Shown in pieces: positions 2,280-9,713 of a stretch of 64,000 nt of DNA. The notes under the pieces are model-generated. The model ran no database searches and was not told the origin of the DNA. It saw nothing but the letters and a program-made list of their open reading frames with translations. The DNA comes from Enterococcus mundtii (GTDB lineage Bacteria > Bacillota > Bacilli > Lactobacillales > Enterococcaceae): the NCBI RefSeq assembly GCF_013394305.1, contig NZ_AP019810.1, positions 2,172,001 through 2,236,000 on the forward strand, read 5' to 3'. The position numbers and the translations under genes are program-made. The first letter of the stretch is position 1, and the number at the start of each line of letters is the position of its first letter.

Positions 2280-2308
2280 TTGACTTATTTCAGAAAGAAA
2301 TCTATACT
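2280..2308 (+). promoter_or_regulatory. Promoter of the aromatic operon leader
   Basis: TTGACT (2280-2285) and TATACT (2303-2308) with an exact 17-base spacer, upstream of the leader peptide. Transcription should start near 2315. Confidence 0.8.
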
Positions 2309-2343
2309 TAAACCAATCTTAAATCAGTTTGGAGCGATTTCTT

Positions 2344-2400
2344 ATGAAAATCACATTGAATTCACAACTGAATACGTATTACTTTAGCTATTTTAGATAG
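2344..2400 (+). CDS. Tyr/Phe-rich leader peptide of the aro operon
   Basis: An 18-codon ORF, MKITLNSQLNTYYFSYFR, with GGAG 9 bases upstream of its ATG. Five of the last seven residues before Arg are Tyr or Phe (codons at 2377-2394), the products of the operon downstream. It is followed at once by a 13-bp hairpin and a chain of alternative pairings ending in two terminators. The composition, position and following structures are those of an attenuator leader peptide: ribosome stalling on Tyr/Phe codons would report charged tRNA supply. Not seen as a protein with its own function. Confidence 0.85.
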   Translation: MKITLNSQLNTYYFSYFR

Positions 2401-2479
2401 GTTTGTATTCATGACATTCATGGGTGCAAACACAACGTTTGTATCTATGATGGCTAAGGATGTTTGAGATGACTTGTCC

Positions 2480-2512
2480 GCCACATAGATGAAAATCTAT
2501 AGTGGCTTTTTT
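2480..2512 (+). terminator. Attenuator terminator 1
   Basis: GCCACATAGAT (2480-2490), a GAAA tetraloop, ATCTATAGTGGC (2495-2506) with one bulged A, then six T. Its 5' arm can instead pair with 2443-2454, which carries almost the same sequence as its own 3' arm. Confidence 0.85.
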
Positions 2513-2528
2513 GTTAGAATTGGTGAAG

Positions 2529-2563
2529 GCCCACTGTAGATTTGTCTACGGCGGGCTTTTTTT
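2529..2563 (+). terminator. Attenuator terminator 2
   Basis: Arms 2529-2540 and 2545-2556 form a 12-position stem with one A-C mismatch and one G-U pair, TTTG loop, then seven T. Its 5' arm can instead pair with the 3' arm of terminator 1. Confidence 0.85.
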
Positions 2564-2697
2564 ATACCTAACGAAAGGAGAACCACATCAGTTCATTTTC
2601 CAACGAGTTATTTTAAGTAAACAACGAACGATTTTCCATTGTCGATCAAGTGTTCAAACAGTGATAAAAAAATAAAAATAAAAAAGGATGTTATCTT

Positions 2698-3717
2698 ATG
2701 ATTTTAATTATTAAACCAGGAATTGAAGTAAACCAACTAGAACCAGTACTTTCACGTATCAAGGAAGAGGGCTTGGACGTTCAGATCAACCATGGCAAAG
2801 ATCGTCTTGTTTTAGGATTGATCGGTGATCCAAAAATTATCCAAGGTGTACCATTTGAAAGATACGACACGGTGGAGCGTGCAGTAAAAATCTCTAATAC
2901 GTACAAACTGACTTCTCGAGAATTTCATCCGCAAGATACAGTCGTTGATGTGGATGGTTTGAAAATCGGTGATGGTAGTTTTGTGACGATGGCTGGTCCT
3001 TGTTCAGTAGAAGGCGAAGAACAAATCATGGAAACTGCTCGTATGGCAAAAGCTGGTGGGGCAACAGTCCTACGTGGAGGAGCCTACAAACCTAGAACGT
3101 CACCCTACGCTTTCCAAGGATTAGGAGAAGAAGGACTGAAAATGATGCGTAAAGCAGCGGATCATTACGGCTTAAAAGTCATTACCGAAGTCATGGATGA
3201 AGCCCATATCGATGTCGTTTGCGAATACACAGATATCATTCAGATCGGCGCCAGAAATATGCAAAACTTTCGTCTATTAGAAGCTGTTGGGAAAACAGGA
3301 AAACCAATTGGCTTGAAACGCGGGATTTCAGGAACGATCGAAGAATGGTTGAACGCGGCGGAATACATTGCGGTACAAAACAATCCAAACATCATCTTTA
3401 TCGAACGTGGTATTCGTACTTACGAAACAGCGACACGCAATACCTTCGATCTAAGTGCTGTACCGATCATTAAAAAATTAAGTCATTTCCCGATCATCGT
3501 TGATCCAAGTCATGGTACAGGGGTTTGGGATCTCGTATCACCAATGGCAAGAGCCGGTGTTGCTAGTGGCGCAGATGGGATGATCGTAGAGATCCACCCT
3601 GATCCAATCCACGCATGGTCAGATGGACAGCAATCATTGAATGAAAAGAACTACCTACGAATGATGGAAGAAGTCGAGATTTTAGTTGAAGCAATGAATA
3701 AAATCAAAGCCTTATAG
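2698..3717 (+). CDS. aroF: 3-deoxy-7-phosphoheptulonate (DAHP) synthase
   Basis: A 339-aa type I-beta DAHP synthase, condensing phosphoenolpyruvate and erythrose 4-phosphate in the first step of the shikimate pathway. Residues 1-75 form the ferredoxin-like N-terminal regulatory domain; the barrel follows with GPCSVE near residue 100, [16 protein letters not shown] near 124-139, GARNMQNF near 182 and DPSHGTG near 273. First structural gene after the attenuator, with AAAGGATG ahead of its ATG, and 14 bases before aroB. The N-terminal domain is not a chorismate mutase, so that activity must be encoded elsewhere. Being the committed step, it is the logical target of the leader control. Confidence 0.95.
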
Positions 3718-3731
3718 AAAAGAGGAGCGTC

Positions 3732-4796
3732 ATGTTAGAAGTTGTCTTACCAGAAAAAAGCTATGAGATCATCATTGAACGAAATGCACTCGATCATGTG
3801 TCTGAGTGGATCGAAGGAATCTGGAAAAATAAAAAAATCGCGATTATCAGTGATACGAATGTTTTTCCGATATACGGCGAAAAAATTTGTCAACAGTTGC
3901 GGGCAAGCTACGAAGTCGTCCATTATGTTGTTTCAGCTGGGGAGAGCAGCAAATCATTCGACATGGCAGCTCACCTCTATGCGTTTTTAGCAGAAGAACA
4001 ATTTACGCGTAGTGATGCGGTGATTGCGCTTGGAGGGGGAGTGATCGGCGATTTAGCCAGCTTCGTTGCTTCCACCTATATGCGAGGGATTTCATTTGTC
4101 CAGATCCCGACTTCCCTACTGGCACAGGTCGATTCAAGCATTGGAGGAAAAACAGCAATCAATGCACCCATGGCGAAAAATATGATTGGGACATTTGCAC
4201 AACCAGACGGGGTATTGATCGATCCAGAGACGTTAATGACGTTATCAGAGCGTAGAATCCAAGAAGGGATCGCTGAGATCATCAAGTGTGGTGCAATCAG
4301 TGATGAAACGCTATGGCAAGATTTGGCAAAATTAACAGGAGTTGCTGACTTACTGGCTAATAGTGAAAAAATCATTGAAAAGGCGTTGCGTGTGAAGAAA
4401 CAAGTTGTTGAAGAAGATCAATTCGATAACGGGAATCGTTTGTTACTGAACTTTGGCCATACGATCGGACATGCCATCGAAAATACTGCTGGTTATGGTC
4501 AGATCAGTCATGGCGAAGCCGTAGCGATCGGTATGGTGCAAATCACCAAACAAGCCGAAAAGATGGGAAAATCACCAGTGGGCATCACTGCGCAATTGAT
4601 CCAAATGATCGAAAAGTATCAGTTACCGATCAAGTACCAACCTTGGGAGGAGCAATCCCTTTATGATGCGATCACCCACGATAAAAAGGCACGTGGAAAG
4701 ACATTGAAAATTATTTTATTAGATAAAATCGGACAAGCAAGAATCCAAGAAATTCCGCTTGAGTCCGTGAAAGACTATTTAAAGGAGGGGAACTAA
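3732..4796 (+). CDS. aroB: 3-dehydroquinate synthase
   Basis: A 354-aa cytoplasmic enzyme converting DAHP to 3-dehydroquinate, NAD- and metal-dependent. Seen: the NAD-binding GGGVIGD near residue 98, the stretch QIPTSLLAQVDSSIGGKTAI, and the metal-ligand motif LNFGHTIGHAIE near residue 237. Typical family length. RBS GAGGAG lies 7 bases upstream of the ATG; the TAA stop abuts the aroC ATG. Second enzyme of the operon. Confidence 0.95.
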   Translation: MLEVVLPEKSYEIIIERNALDHVSEWIEGIWKNKKIAIISDTNVFPIYGEKICQQLRASYEVVHYVVSAGESSKSFDMAAHLYAFLAEEQFTRSDAVIALGGGVIGDLASFVASTYMRGISFVQIPTSLLAQVDSSIGGKTAINAPMAKNMIGTFAQPDGVLIDPETLMTLSERRIQEGIAEIIKCGAISDETLWQDLAKLTGVADLLANSEKIIEKALRVKKQVVEEDQFDNGNRLLLNFGHTIGHAIENTAGYGQISHGEAVAIGMVQITKQAEKMGKSPVGITAQLIQMIEKYQLPIKYQPWEEQSLYDAITHDKKARGKTLKIILLDKIGQARIQEIPLESVKDYLKEGN

Positions 4797-5963
4797 ATGC
4801 GTTTTTTAACAGCAGGAGAATCTCATGGTCCACAGTTAACTGCCATTATTGAAGGTATCCCGGCAGGTTTAGAAGTTTCACTTGAAAAAATCAATGAAGA
4901 TCTTGCGAGACGACAAGGGGGGTACGGTCGTGGTGGCAGAATGAAGATCGAGAAAGATCGTGTCCAAATCACCTCAGGTATTCGACATGGTAAAACGCTT
5001 GGTTCGCCAATCACAATGATCGTGGAGAATAAAGACTGGAAGAATTGGCAAACGGTGATGTCAGCCGAGCCAATCGAAGAAAAACATGTCACACGTCGTC
5101 GAGTAGCCAAACCTCGTCCAGGACATGCGGATCTAGTTGGTGGAATGAAATACCAACATCAAGATCTTAGGAATGTGTTAGAACGGTCTTCAGCTAGAGA
5201 AACGACCATGCGTGTAGCAATCGGCTCTTTAGCAAAACAGATCCTAGCAGCACTAGATATTGAAATTGCCAGTCACGTAGCAGTTCTTGGAGGGGTCAAA
5301 GCAACGATTCCTGAAGTGCTACCTGTGGCGGTGATCAAGGAAAAAACAACGATCTCCGAAGTCAATATGGTAGACCTTGAGATCGAAGAACAAGTCAAAA
5401 CATTGATCGATGAGACGAAAAAAGCAGGTGATACCTTAGGTGGTGTCGTCGAAGTCCGGGTTGAAAATGTACCGGCTGGTTTGGGTAGTTATGTCCAATG
5501 GGATAAAAAATTAGATGGAAAATTAGCACAAGCCATGCTGAGTATCAATGCCTTCAAAGGGGTAGAATTTGGGATCGGTTTTGATGCAGCGACTTTACCA
5601 GGTTCTAAAGTTATGGATGAAATCACCTGGGATCAAGAACAAGGCTACCGCCGGACAACCAATCATTTAGGTGGATTTGAAGGTGGGATGACAAATGGGG
5701 AACAAATCATCGTTCGTGGTGTGATGAAACCGATCCCTACACTTTACAAGCCGTTGATGAGTGTGGATATCGACACGAAAGAAGCCTATAAAGCAAGTGT
5801 CGAACGTTCCGACAGTACCGCTGTACCAGCAGCTTCTGTGGTGGCTGAACACGTCATTGCAACAGCACTTGCCGTGGAGATCCTTGAACATTTCCCAGCG
5901 GATAACATGAGTGAGCTGAAAAAATCTGTTGCCAGTCATCGGCAGATGATCCAAGACTTTTAG
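4797..5963 (+). CDS. aroC: Chorismate synthase
   Basis: A 388-aa FMN-dependent enzyme making chorismate from EPSP, the last common step of the pathway. Seen: GESHG at residues 7-11, RPGHADLVG near 104, RSSARETT near 125 and [10 protein letters not shown] near 295, all family signatures. Starts directly after the aroB stop with no gap (AGGAGGGGAAC-TAA-ATG), so its RBS lies inside aroB. Length is that of the long bacterial form. Confidence 0.95.
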
Positions 5964-5976
5964 TGAGGAGACTGAT

Positions 5977-7056
5977 ATGAAGAAAAAGGTATTTGTCTTA
6001 GGTTTAGGTCTGATTGGTGCTTCGCTTTGCCGAGCCATCAAAGGATCGAATGTGACTCTTTATGGATGGGATCATTCAGCAGAAACAAGAAAAATTGCAG
6101 AAGAAGTCCAATTAGTGGATCATCTGGTGTCTGGGATCGAAGAAGCAAGTCAAATGGATGTTATTTTATTAGCGGTTCCTGTACAAGTTAGTTTGGACTA
6201 TTTGCAACAATTAGCGACACTTCCGCTAAAGGAAACTGTATTGGTCAGTGATACTGGCAGTACGAAAGCAGCAATCATGACAGCGGCTAAGGAATTACCT
6301 TTTACTTTTATTGGTGGACACCCAATGGCAGGCTCGCATAAATCTGGAGTAAAAGCCGGCAATCCTAATTTGTTCGAGGAAGCTTATTATATATTGACCA
6401 ATGATCATGAGAGTGATCGTGTAGCTGAACTGATGGAACTATTAGAACCGACTCGAGCAAAATTTGTATTGATGGAAGCCAAAAATCATGACGAGATCGT
6501 CGGCGTTTTAAGCCATTTGCCTCATATCGTGGCTGCTGGTTTAGTGCAAACCAGTGATGAACTCAATCAAAAACATCCAAGAGCCTCCCAACTTGCAGCC
6601 GGAGGGTTTCGAGATATTACGCGTATTGCTTCTTCTGATCCAAAAATGTGGACAGATATCTTATTAACGAATCAAGAAATCATGCTGTCTTTACTAGAAG
6701 AATGGCAATCCTCCATGGAAACATTGAAAACACAACTTGCGAGAAATGATGAAGAGGCCATTTATCGATTTTTTGCACAAGCGAAGCAAACAAGGGATCA
6801 GTTGCCGAAGAAACGACAAGGAACGATTCCAGCGTTCTATGATCTATACGTTGATATTCCGGATATTTCCGGTGCAGTTGCTAAGGTGACAACGGCTTTG
6901 AGCCAAGCAGATATTTCAATCATCAATCTAAAAATACAAGAAACTAGAGAAGATATTTTCGGAGTCCTTGAATTGTCCTTCAAAAATCAAACCGATTTAG
7001 AAAAAGGACAAGCATTGATTCAAGCGGAAAATTTTCACTGTTGGATCAGGAGTTGA
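5977..7056 (+). CDS. tyrA: Prephenate dehydrogenase with ACT domain
   Basis: A 359-aa enzyme oxidatively decarboxylating prephenate to 4-hydroxyphenylpyruvate for tyrosine synthesis. N-terminal Rossmann motif GLGLIGASL (about 9-17), GGHPMAGS near 111-118 and the all-helical dehydrogenase domain; residues about 285-359 form an ACT domain ([20 protein letters not shown]), the usual site for tyrosine feedback control. RBS GTGAGGAG. 13 bases after aroC, 4 bases before aroA. Confidence 0.93.
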
Positions 7057-7060
7057 GACA

Positions 7061-8344
7061 ATGCAATTACTTAATGCTACACATGGGATCAAAGGTGAGC
7101 TAACGGTTCCAGCAGATAAATCGATTTCTCATCGCAGCATCATGTTTGGTGCAATCAGTCATGGAAAAACGACGATAACGAACTTTTTAAAAGCAGAAGA
7201 TTGCTTGAGTACGATGTCCATATTTAGACAATTAGGTGTGAGAATAGAAGAGGAAGAAGAGAAAATCCATGTTTATGGTTATGGCGTAGAGGGATTACAA
7301 ACACCAACAGAACGTTTAGATGCAGGTAATTCTGGTACAACGATCCGTTTACTTTTAGGGATTTTAGCTGGAAGTAAGATTTCGGCAGAAGTGTCTGGAG
7401 ATGACTCGTTGAATCGTCGCCCGATGGGGAGAGTGATGAATCCTTTACGTGAAATGGGTGCAGATCTTAAAGGGATCGAACATCCAGATCTACCACCTTT
7501 ACGAGTGACTGGTGGGCCTTTGAAACCAATCGAATATGAGATGCCGATTGCCAGTGCGCAAGTCAAATCAGCGATTTTATTCGCGGCACTTCAAGCAGAT
7601 GGTGAGACAACGATCATCGAAAAAGAACGCTCACGGAATCATACAGAAGAAATGATCAAACAATTTGGTGGAGAAATCAGAGTAGAAGATAAAGTGATCA
7701 CACTTGCTGGCGGACAACGGTTAGTTGGACAAAACGTGGCGGTACCTGGGGATATTTCGTCAGCAGCCTTTTATCTAGTCGCAGCAAGTATTTTGCCAGA
7801 TAGTGAAGTCTTATTGAAACAAGTAGGAATCAATCCAACACGAACAGGGATTTTAGATGTATTGATCGAAATGGGGGCTTCGATCCAAGAAATGCAAATC
7901 GATCAACAAAATCAAGCGGCTGACTTAATGGTACGTTCTGCCAACTTGCAGGCGTGTACGATCGAAGGAGAAATCATTCCTCGCTTGATCGATGAATTAC
8001 CGATTTTGGCATTAGCTGCAACACAAGCACAAGGCACGACGATCATTCGGGACGCACAAGAATTAAAAGTGAAAGAAACAAATCGCATCGATGCGACAGC
8101 GGAAGAATTGATAAAAATGGGCGCAAACATCGAAACAACAGATGATGGGCTGATCATTCATGGTCCGACACCTTTGCATGGGGCAATTGTTGACAGTCAT
8201 GGGGATCATCGCATTGGCATGATGTTACAGATTGCCGCATTATTGACCGATGAGCCAGTTGAATTGAACCATCCAGAAGCGGTAAATATTTCTTATCCTG
8301 ACTTCTTCACTGATCTAGCTGGTCTGATCAAGGAGAAAAACTAA
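7061..8344 (+). CDS. aroA: 5-enolpyruvylshikimate-3-phosphate synthase
   Basis: A 427-aa enzyme joining phosphoenolpyruvate to shikimate 3-phosphate. Seen: ADKSISHRS near residue 19-27, [17 protein letters not shown] near 87-103, [15 protein letters not shown] near 119-133, and a C-terminal [11 protein letters not shown]. The NSGTT form of the PEP loop is the variant usual in Gram-positive class II enzymes (family knowledge). Its TAA overlaps the aroK ATG by one base. Confidence 0.95.
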
Positions 8345-8850
8345 TGGCTGCAATTGTGCTGATTGGTTTTATGGGCGCCGGTAAAACAACGATCAGTCGC
8401 AAGCTTTCTATGCAGTTAAAGAAACCATTGATCGATATGGATACAAAACTAGTCGAGGAGTTTGGCTGTTCGATCAGTCAGTATTTTGAATTACATGGCG
8501 AAGCTGCCTTTCGACAGGAAGAAACGAAGCTACTGAAAAACTCATTGCAAGAAGAAGCGATCATTGCGACAGGTGGGGGAGTTATCCTACAAGAAGAAAA
8601 TCAACGACTGCTGACAGATCATCTGGTGGTTTACTTAAAAGCTGATCCCGATCTTTTGATCAAACGTATCCGCCAAGATCACAAACAAGCCCGTCCGTTG
8701 GCACTCGATAAAGATGATACAGAGTTAAAAGAATTATTTTTTTCGCGGAAAAAACACTATGAAACATTAGCAGATCTTACGATAGAAACAACTGGTAAAT
8801 CACCAGCAGAAGTTGTCTCAGAAATCATAAAGCAGGTGATGAATCGATGA
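8344..8850 (+). CDS. aroK: Shikimate kinase
   Basis: A 168-aa P-loop kinase phosphorylating shikimate with ATP. Walker A is GFMGAGKTT (residues 8-16), the substrate-binding DMD follows near 32-34, GEAAFRQEE near 52-60, and GGGVI near 77-81; the lid arginine region is KQARPLA. Overlaps aroA by one base (TAATG) and pheA by four (ATGA), showing tight translational coupling. Confidence 0.95.
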   Translation: MAAIVLIGFMGAGKTTISRKLSMQLKKPLIDMDTKLVEEFGCSISQYFELHGEAAFRQEETKLLKNSLQEEAIIATGGGVILQEENQRLLTDHLVVYLKADPDLLIKRIRQDHKQARPLALDKDDTELKELFFSRKKHYETLADLTIETTGKSPAEVVSEIIKQVMNR

Positions 8851-9713
8851 AAATTGGTTATCTAGGCCCAAAAGGTTCCTTCACATATAGTGCAGTAAAG
8901 AATTATTTCAACGAAGGCGATTGGTCTCCGTATCAAGCTTTAACAAATTTGATTGATGCCCAGATCAACGATGCGATCGATTATGCGATGGTACCGATCG
9001 AGAATTCCATCGAAGGTTCTGTATTGCCCACATTAGACCATGTCTATGAAACCTTACCAACGATCCAAGGAGAAATCGTTTTACCAATCAAGCAACAATT
9101 GATGGTACATCCTAAGCATCAACAGATGTGGCAAGAGGTAACAAAAATCTGTAGTCATCCGCAAGCGTTGGCACAATCGCAAGTATTTTTGAAGCAACAG
9201 TTCCCTGACGTGGAAATCGAGCAAATGGGTTCGACTGCCCAAGGTGCCCAACAAGTTGCCGAGCATCCTGAACAAAAAATCGCGGCAATCGGACCTAAAG
9301 AAGCTGCGGAACAGTTTGGTTTGACCATCGTTCAGCAAGATATCCAATCGATCCGCAACAATGAAACCCGTTTTTGGCTACTAGGTTCCTCACCGATGTC
9401 ATCTCAATTACCAGTCAGTACTTACAAAGCAACGCTATTTGTAGACTTGCCAGAAAATCGCCCAGGTGCGTTATATCAAGTACTTGCGGTGTTTGCAGAA
9501 CAAAAACTTAATTTGACCAAAATCGAGTCTAGACCGCAAAAAACCTCGTTAGGTGAATACTTTTTCGTGATCGAAGTAGAGATTGAACAGGCAGATACAA
9601 AATTGAACGAAGCAATCAAACTACTGGAACAGCGAGCATTTCCGGTCCAATTGATCGGAGAATATCCAGTGTACCGTAGCCGTGAGGATAAAAAAGCGAC
9701 ATACAGAAAATAA
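8847..9713 (+). CDS. pheA: Prephenate dehydratase with ACT domain
   Basis: A 288-aa monofunctional prephenate dehydratase giving phenylpyruvate for phenylalanine synthesis. Seen: GPKGSFTYSA at 6-15, VPIENSIEGSV near 51-61, and the catalytic TRF motif in NNETRFWLLG near 171-180. Residues about 195-275 form an ACT domain with ENRPGALYQVL and ESRPQ, the phenylalanine-binding signature. No chorismate mutase domain is fused. Last gene of the operon, ATGA overlap with aroK, followed by an intrinsic terminator. Together with tyrA it explains why the leader peptide carries both Tyr and Phe codons. Confidence 0.95.
   Translation: MKIGYLGPKGSFTYSAVKNYFNEGDWSPYQALTNLIDAQINDAIDYAMVPIENSIEGSVLPTLDHVYETLPTIQGEIVLPIKQQLMVHPKHQQMWQEVTKICSHPQALAQSQVFLKQQFPDVEIEQMGSTAQGAQQVAEHPEQKIAAIGPKEAAEQFGLTIVQQDIQSIRNNETRFWLLGSSPMSSQLPVSTYKATLFVDLPENRPGALYQVLAVFAEQKLNLTKIESRPQKTSLGEYFFVIEVEIEQADTKLNEAIKLLEQRAFPVQLIGEYPVYRSREDKKATYRK

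Follow-up and report, generated by a model that had tools for sequence, protein, structure and literature searches.

A leader ahead of the aro operon of Enterococcus mundtii as a very probable member of a family of ribosome-mediated attenuators whose last leader codons form one strand of the switch

The window is a stretch of 64,000 nucleotides from Enterococcus mundtii (contig NZ_AP019810.1, positions 2,172,001 to 2,236,000), and coordinates are given within it. Near its start, a small leader ORF that has its own ribosome site and both a start and a stop codon, as expected of an attenuator, lies upstream of an apparent aro operon, and its regulatory codons (Tyr and Phe) specify amino acids of that operon. 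The Tyr/Phe-rich leader peptide and its fit to the downstream pathway had both been described in the initial annotation and were confirmed, the match of codons to genes extending across relatives. The DAHP synthase encoded here is reported to be 100% identical (rounded) to that of E. mundtii strains Pe161 and CVM N55263. The features of the leader region and the operon are as follows.

2280..2308, + strand: candidate sigma-70-type promoter-like site, TTGACT-17-TATACT (consensus scan, 10/12 matches)
2331..2334, + strand: Shine-Dalgarno GGAG of the leader peptide, 9 nt ahead of its ATG (sequence)
2344..2400, + strand: leader peptide MKITLNSQLNTYYFSYFR, followed by stop, with a Tyr/Phe-rich C-terminus (ATG 2344, TAG 2400; ORF, sequence)
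2384..2572, + strand: match to Rfam RF02863 sRNA_2410 over the full family length (66.8 bits, gathering threshold 61)
2698..3717, + strand: aroF, DAHP synthase, first gene past the leader (Pfam PF00793, 1.5e-77)
3732..9713, + strand: remainder of the apparent operon, aroB, aroC, tyrA, aroA, aroK and pheA (named by reading translations in the ORF list)

The consensus scan gave 4 promoter-like sites, against an average of 2.2 in shuffled sequences. The stretch TTTGGAGCGAT is also present ahead of the leader in many of the relatives listed, and the leader C-terminus is identical in relatives, which were retrieved with a pattern that itself includes these codons. On the minus strand, a divergent ORF of 484 aa (754-2208) resembles by eye a Y-family DNA polymerase (UmuC-like).

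Seven pairing segments had been proposed downstream of the leader, and all of them pair as claimed, with duplex energies of -14.3 (1:2), -14.9 (2:3), -15.9 (3:4), -15.2 (4:5), -17.1 (5:6), and -20.4 kcal/mol (6:7). An eighth arm, formed by the last leader codons, had been overlooked and is here numbered 0. The arms and hairpins are listed below.

2382..2399, + strand: segment 0, last leader codons, pairs with segment 3 (duplex energy, alignment of relatives, swap tests)
2401..2414, + strand: segment 1, pairs with 2 (duplex energy, alignment)
2418..2431, + strand: segment 2, pairs with 1 or 3 (duplex energy, alignment)
2437..2459, + strand: segment 3, pairs with 0, 2 or 4 (duplex energy, alignment)
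2480..2491, + strand: segment 4, pairs with 3 or 5 (alignment)
2494..2507, + strand: segment 5, pairs with 4 or 6 (alignment)
2526..2542, + strand: segment 6, pairs with 5 or 7 (alignment)
2545..2559, + strand: segment 7, pairs with 6 (alignment)
2480..2512, + strand: terminator-like hairpin 1 (4:5) with U-run (folding, U-run)
2526..2563, + strand: terminator hairpin 2 (6:7) with U-run (terminator scan, alignment)

Helix 0:3 has 17 pairs and one mismatch at -19.8 kcal/mol; among the listed pairings, only 6:7 is stronger. The minimum-energy fold of 2372-2460 is helix 0:3 around hairpin 1:2 at -32.7 kcal/mol. Owing to the 0:3 pairing, termination is the expected default and the regulatory codons themselves serve as a switch strand. 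There is a U-run after arm 5 and another after arm 7; the consensus terminator scan called the second terminator only, and the first was seen through folding and its U-run. The arm repeat ATCTATxxTGGC reported earlier was found at 2443 and 2495. No Rfam T-box match reached the gathering threshold in the window or at 12 loci of the attenuator family, and the window likewise has no match to the Rfam trpB motif (RF04312) at its gathering threshold.

The element is very probably a ribosome-mediated transcription attenuator, from a family whose leaders contribute their final codons to the switch as one of its strands. Translation of the leader, charged tRNA as the signal and the kinetics of folding are all inferred. 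With the ribosome absent or released, segment 0 would pair with 3 around hairpin 1:2, so that 4:5 forms, followed by 6:7, and transcription is terminated. If the ribosome pauses at the stop codon, it would cover segments 0 and 1, and 2:3 would form, again giving termination. A ribosome stalled on the Tyr/Phe codons would cover segment 0, allowing 1:2 to form, leaving 3 free for 4 and letting 5 take 6; the 5:6 pairing would block the 6:7 terminator, and the aro operon would be transcribed. Relatives would use the same relay with Trp, Ile/Val/Leu or, in one case, His codons before matching genes. The ribosome-position logic of the initial annotation thus stands as far as a leader-peptide attenuator goes, but arms 1-7 alone would predict readthrough in untranslated RNA, whereas termination is expected once 0:3 is included.

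The distribution was examined with a leader-end DNA pattern and with covariance models. Rfam RF02863 matched in 16/16 genomes of the genus. The pattern, a seed that includes the Tyr/Phe codons and tolerates up to 3 mismatches, was found in 94/106 genomes of Enterococcaceae and in 85/396 of Lactobacillales, at most three times per genome. Genes downstream of pattern loci include aroE, aroF, aroC and aroB (by motif and clustering) and also an ABC transporter with a TrpX-like binding protein. Covariance model R1, built from 64 loci, matched in 54 of 80 genomes of the order outside Enterococcaceae, 3 of which had a pattern match. Model R2, built from the R1 matches, matched in 44 of 80 further genomes of the order and in 5 of 61 drawn across the class, one of these (G438) lying outside Lactobacillales. 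An oddity of E. mundtii was ruled out by these matches across genus, family and order.

Alignments were made of 64 loci (A1) and of 41 biosynthetic loci (A2), picked by hand out of reference sets with 99 core and 60 biosynthetic loci. These sets had first been cleared of 14 records (near-duplicates, the apparently decayed E. ratti leader L023 and the mis-segmented L159); the omission of L023, whose 1:2 and 2:3 duplexes are weak (-7.2 and -7.8), favours the pair counts. L125, a pattern match with 3 mismatches, was taken as chance and excluded, and L040 and L158 could not be segmented, which left 114/116 loci segmented. Helices 0:3, 1:2 and 4:5 were jointly paired in 93.3% of A1 cells and helices 4:5 and 6:7 in 93.9% of A2 cells, against 32-50% for slid partners (27-52% when all helices are considered); the structure used for scoring came from a single row of the alignment, which tilts the score towards pairing. 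As shuffled partners still pair in 86-98% of cells owing to conserved columns, support for covariation rests on changes to both sides of a pair. These exceeded all 500 shuffles for the A1 and A2 helix sets, whether pairs or cells were counted. In A1, both sides changed in 10/14 pairs of 1:2, in 6/16 of 2:3 (87.6% of cells paired), in 2/11 of 3:4 (92.6%), and in 7/11 of 4:5 (83.1%). In A2, the counts were 3/11 for 4:5 (94.9%), 8/14 for 5:6 (88.7%), and 9/12 for 6:7 (93.0%). The terminator and antiterminator helices are mutually exclusive, as in an attenuator, and are kept by covariation. The check in relatives proposed at the outset came out in favour of the two internally consistent pairing registers that had been described.

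Helix 0:3 was paired in 98.5% of A1 cells, with U-A/U-G exchange at two pairs, and just 2/17 pairs were altered on both sides, a number matched by 3/500 shuffles. The invariance of segment 0 in A1 is partly selection, since these loci were retrieved by its sequence. The wider family relieves this bias. When leader ends were exchanged within a set of 121 records that all differ in this end, duplexes of a leader with its cognate window averaged -18.3 versus -13.7 (sd 0.25) for permuted ones, and 0/5000 permutations were as low; the cognate window ranked only 12th of 121 (median) because many windows are alike. Without arm 1 and after thinning by identity, sets of 161, 108 and 63 cores (the last below 68% identity) gave -17.2, -16.9 and -16.6 versus -13.0, -12.2 and -11.6, each with 0/5000 permutations as low. 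Within classes, the corresponding counts were 0/5000 for Tyr/Phe, 4 and 7/5000 for Ile/Val/Leu and 64 to 76/5000 for Trp, the signal being weaker for the few Trp and Ile cores. At locus L340, the leader end is changed to YYYGYYG-stop, and arm 3 carries matching (compensating) changes.

The terminators differ between branches of the family. At least 6 T within 8 nt past 4:5 were found at 58/72 biosynthetic loci (aroF 13/13, aroE 39/53, aroB 3/3, aroC 3/3; 3 unlabelled loci and 1 pheA locus set aside) versus 0/38 ABC-transporter loci. Because this U-rich tail is absent at the transporter loci, the double terminator would seem to belong to the biosynthetic branch.

For the comparison of codons with genes, leaders were classified from their last nine codons, with thresholds fixed after examples had been seen. 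The 263 locus records, among which some sites recur and some strains are nearly identical, contain 249 distinct 130-nt cores. Distant leaders keep a frame near [xx]S[xx]R-stop, in which S can become G or N and R can become G, while the regulatory codons vary: ends such as YYSYYR, FFSFFR, NIISIIR and LLISVIR, each before the stop, occur alongside Trp forms such as NWRNWRR and IWQSWHR, also before the stop. Ile/Val/Leu leaders preceded branched-chain genes in 17/17 records (9 branched-chain ABC binding proteins, 2 ilvA, 2 ilvB and 4 ilvE), all within one family (f4), where they came from 12 genomes in 8 genera. Trp leaders preceded a TrpX-type ABC transporter in 11/11 (11 genomes, five families). 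After the 228 Tyr/Phe leaders, a recognised branched-chain gene was found in none; the downstream genes were 128 TrpX-type ABC clusters, 60 aroE, 13 aroF, 4 aroC, 3 aroB, 3 pheA, 3 aminotransferases, 2 transporter-chorismate mutase fusions, 4 binding proteins of polar amino acid type, 3 DASS-type transporters, 1 D-lactate-dehydrogenase-like gene, 1 pheA-like gene (by eye), 1 other ABC-like cluster and 2 unlabelled genes. The remaining 7 records had no called leader, one being the E. ratti leader and six a variant with no stop ahead of the hairpin.

Since Trp and Tyr/Phe loci share the TrpX-type ABC cluster, they were told apart by the NCBIfam TrpX score. Binding proteins under Trp leaders scored above the cut-off of 390 bits in 7/10 (the others 385.5, 335.1 and 324.1; L357 of the 11 loci was left out, and the 621.9 bits of L320 are the sum of two stretches). 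None of 10 under Tyr/Phe leaders did so (290.8-340.6 bits; 10 of 12 proteins drawn at random from 124). A second member lies in the E. mundtii genome outside the window (C1:3091504-3091657, corresponding to L359 505-658; R2 E = 2.9e-4), with the Trp leader MNLSIQFLSEHKNNWRNWRR, then stop, and a following TrpX gene of 470 bits. Four leaders with Phe codons only (FFFSFFR-stop; L121, L128, L130 and L136) stand before TrpX-like ABC binding proteins in genomes that also carry Tyr/Phe copies, which suggests a Phe-specific transporter.

Two Trp-type loci also reached the threshold of the Rfam trpB motif RF04312 (L320 at 68.7 and L350 at 60.4 bits), while the E. mundtii Trp locus fell below the cut-off of 59 with 44.2 bits. 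Matches below threshold at several Tyr/Phe loci, e.g. G031:C2:96956 and G210:C17:68124, speak for common descent of the motif and the Tyr/Phe loci. Among the best 36 of about 110 trpB-motif matches listed (35 unique loci), 32/35 had an upstream leader-like ORF with Trp within its last nine codons, 24 of them with two Trp, compared with 38/720 shuffled upstream regions (6 with two). In these 32, again of the best 36 of about 110 listed, the leader stop lies 12-24 nt before the motif start. The other three were L391 (His), L392 (Tyr/Phe) and L394 (a weak match with no such leader). The L391 leader, ending in QFHHHHRFKGL-stop, lies upstream of a hisZ-like gene (TIGR00443 1.3e-64, 218 bits versus a cut-off of 272, scored on part of the protein), and its end forms an 11-bp duplex with arm 3 at -15.1 kcal/mol. 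Within the family of G458, further His-type loci were sought in five genomes and turned up in 1/5, the same one, so that the His leader is a single instance.

The effect of ribosome position was modelled by masking the bases under the ribosome as far as 15 nt beyond the first base of the P site and counting a helix as formed when at least 5 expected pairs were present. The set contained 113 loci, among them four near-identical E. mundtii records; L210, which had no terminator call, was excluded. In RNA extending to arm 6, 3:4 formed in 7% of loci without a ribosome, in 70% with the ribosome stalled at the first conserved Tyr/Phe codon and in 9% with the ribosome at the stop. In the same three states, 4:5 formed in 63%, 30% and 58%, and 5:6 in 38%, 70% and 44%. 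In RNA to arm 5, the ribosome had no effect on 4:5, which formed in 96-99% of the 113 loci in all states. Equilibrium folds thus give no switching of both terminators; 4:5 forms whether the ribosome is stalled or not, and control of both terminators by the ribosome was not borne out at equilibrium. For E. mundtii, 5:6 was predicted in RNA to arm 6 whatever the ribosome state, and equilibrium folding gave no regulation of terminator 1. Control of terminator 1 would need to be kinetic because 4:5 forms in every ribosome state at equilibrium, and the E. mundtii switch would depend on trapping because 5:6 shows up in every state once the RNA reaches arm 6. In the stalled state, {1:2,3:4} and {2:3,4:5} were at -28.7 and -31.9 kcal/mol, separated by a barrier of 9.5 kcal/mol. 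In the free RNA, the barrier from the terminating structure to full readthrough was 22.3 kcal/mol, but only 10.4 kcal/mol to {0:3,1:2,5:6}. In these models, the relay plausibly works through folding order, and terminator 1 may be partly constitutive.

The kind of attenuator is already known; what is new is the fold, the switch arm made of coding sequence, and the family. The trp, his, pheA and ilv operons of Proteobacteria have ribosome-mediated attenuators, and the enterobacterial his attenuator is a multi-arm relay, so that a chained design is not in itself new, contrary to the first reading. These systems share with the present element pathway-matched leader codons, mutually exclusive hairpins, and an intrinsic terminator; unlike in them, the regulatory codons here are bound in a helix with arm 3, and the same fold is used for several amino acids. 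In searches of the full text of open PMC papers (subscription papers and supplements being outside the scope), nothing was found on this leader peptide, on arm 0 or on a family with exchanged codons.

The element itself had been thought undescribed, which does not hold. The region matches RF02863, named for sRNA_2410 of E. faecium and filed as an sRNA, unlike the attenuator reading given here; the paper behind it (PMC5593968) uses the terms 'leader' and 'attenuat' 0 times in its main text. PMC4448216 places the gbs2033 and gbs1262 elements (gbs2033 of Streptococcus agalactiae) upstream of ABC transporters that are paralogues, reports both a short and a long transcript for each element, and describes them as kept in Lactobacillales, gbs2033 also occurring before E. 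faecium aroFBC-tyrA. They were proposed there as aromatic amino acid riboswitches, and the passage on gbs2033 does not mention a leader peptide. By position and genes, with the sequences unaligned, gbs2033 and gbs1262 correspond to the Tyr/Phe and Trp types. The trpB motif was rated by its authors as a strong candidate for a riboswitch, though they left room for an attenuator (PMC11109978); Trp members of the present family match it, and the motif as matched does not extend to the leader or to arm 0. In bacilli, His leader peptides upstream of hisZ/hisS* have been described with no link, in the part concerned, to Tyr, Trp or Ile leaders (PMC2965389); like L391, they place His codons before a hisZ-like gene, the fold having been compared at L391 only. 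Leader-peptide attenuation is reported in Firmicutes for ilv of S. aureus and Listeria (PMC5794164, PMC5864092), and a comparable leader is the Corynebacterium ilvB uORF (PMC10272879). In S. suis, TrpX is under a T-box (PMC9382623), so one kind of transporter can have either control system. The gbs, sRNA_2410 and trpB-motif elements and the E. mundtii leader are read as one family of ribosome-mediated attenuators.

Three other explanations were weighed. A riboswitch that binds aromatic amino acids as metabolites, the published proposal for gbs2033 and gbs1262 (PMC4448216) and for the trpB motif (PMC11109978), would agree with arms that are almost invariant in close relatives and with the terminator/antiterminator architecture. 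That conservation is accounted for by the pairing of each arm with two or three partners, the fold stays constant while the leader codons follow the pathway, and Trp-codon ORFs stand just ahead of the motif far more often than in shuffled sequence (32/35 of the best 36 of about 110 listed versus 38/720), and a riboswitch is very unlikely. Small RNA function in trans, with sRNA_2410 merely positioned upstream of these genes, follows the annotation in Rfam and in PMC5593968, which includes a Northern blot with two transcripts. Against this, in 22 matches within the genus, the element precedes aroF or a TrpX-like ABC transporter wherever the downstream gene was readable, the leader ORF and the alternative terminator pairings are conserved, and attenuation itself predicts a short RNA, short and long transcripts having been published for presumed relatives (PMC4448216; PMC5593968); this explanation is extremely improbable.

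Nascent-peptide arrest of the kind known from TnaC is another way in which a leader could stall a ribosome. The peptide QLNxYYFSYFR would then act on binding free Tyr or Phe and not through a lack of charged tRNA, and QLN is indeed largely kept in Enterococcaceae although it lies outside helix 0:3. However, QLN is missing in distant Tyr/Phe members, e.g. MKQQAISTQKFYFSYFR, the S and R codons sit within helix 0:3, and the change to Ile, Trp and His codons suits codon sensing; arrest by the peptide is very unlikely.

Under the preferred reading of ribosome-mediated attenuation, one ancestral RNA relay was probably re-specified in Bacilli by few codon changes, the codons serving as both sensor and strand and arm 3 compensating. 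Its range would take in Tyr/Phe, Trp and Ile/Val/Leu, with His on at least one occasion, and it would account for the gbs2033/gbs1262 and trpB-motif candidates and for one sRNA family. If so, ribosome-mediated attenuation would be a standing, portable alternative to the T-box in Lactobacillales, and the trpB-motif and gbs1262/gbs2033 candidates would sense leader translation and no ligand. The family would form a natural codon-swap series with sensor specificity readable from sequence, and TrpX-like transporters under Tyr/Phe leaders would be predicted to carry Tyr/Phe, not Trp.

Several minor features were observed. The E. ratti aroF leader (L023/L042) has no in-frame start codon, an altered end (TATTTAAGC) and weak arms 1:2 and 2:3, and looks like a decayed copy. 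Six short variants (L261, L264, L265, L346, L348 and L349) have no stop codon ahead of the hairpin and no hairpin 1:2, and their reading frame seems to cross the structure; the gene that follows is small and prephenate dehydratase-like by eye only, that of L349 having no NCBIfam or Pfam match. The SQLN codons of the E. mundtii leader (2362-2373) include the QLN that is gone in many distant members, and a look by eye for a helix between the QLN codons and the 5' UTR gave inconsistent results across loci. The linker after arm 3 (2460-2477, approximately TTTTGAGATGACTT) is partly conserved, also in A1 and A2, is unexplained by any helix and is perhaps a polymerase pause site.
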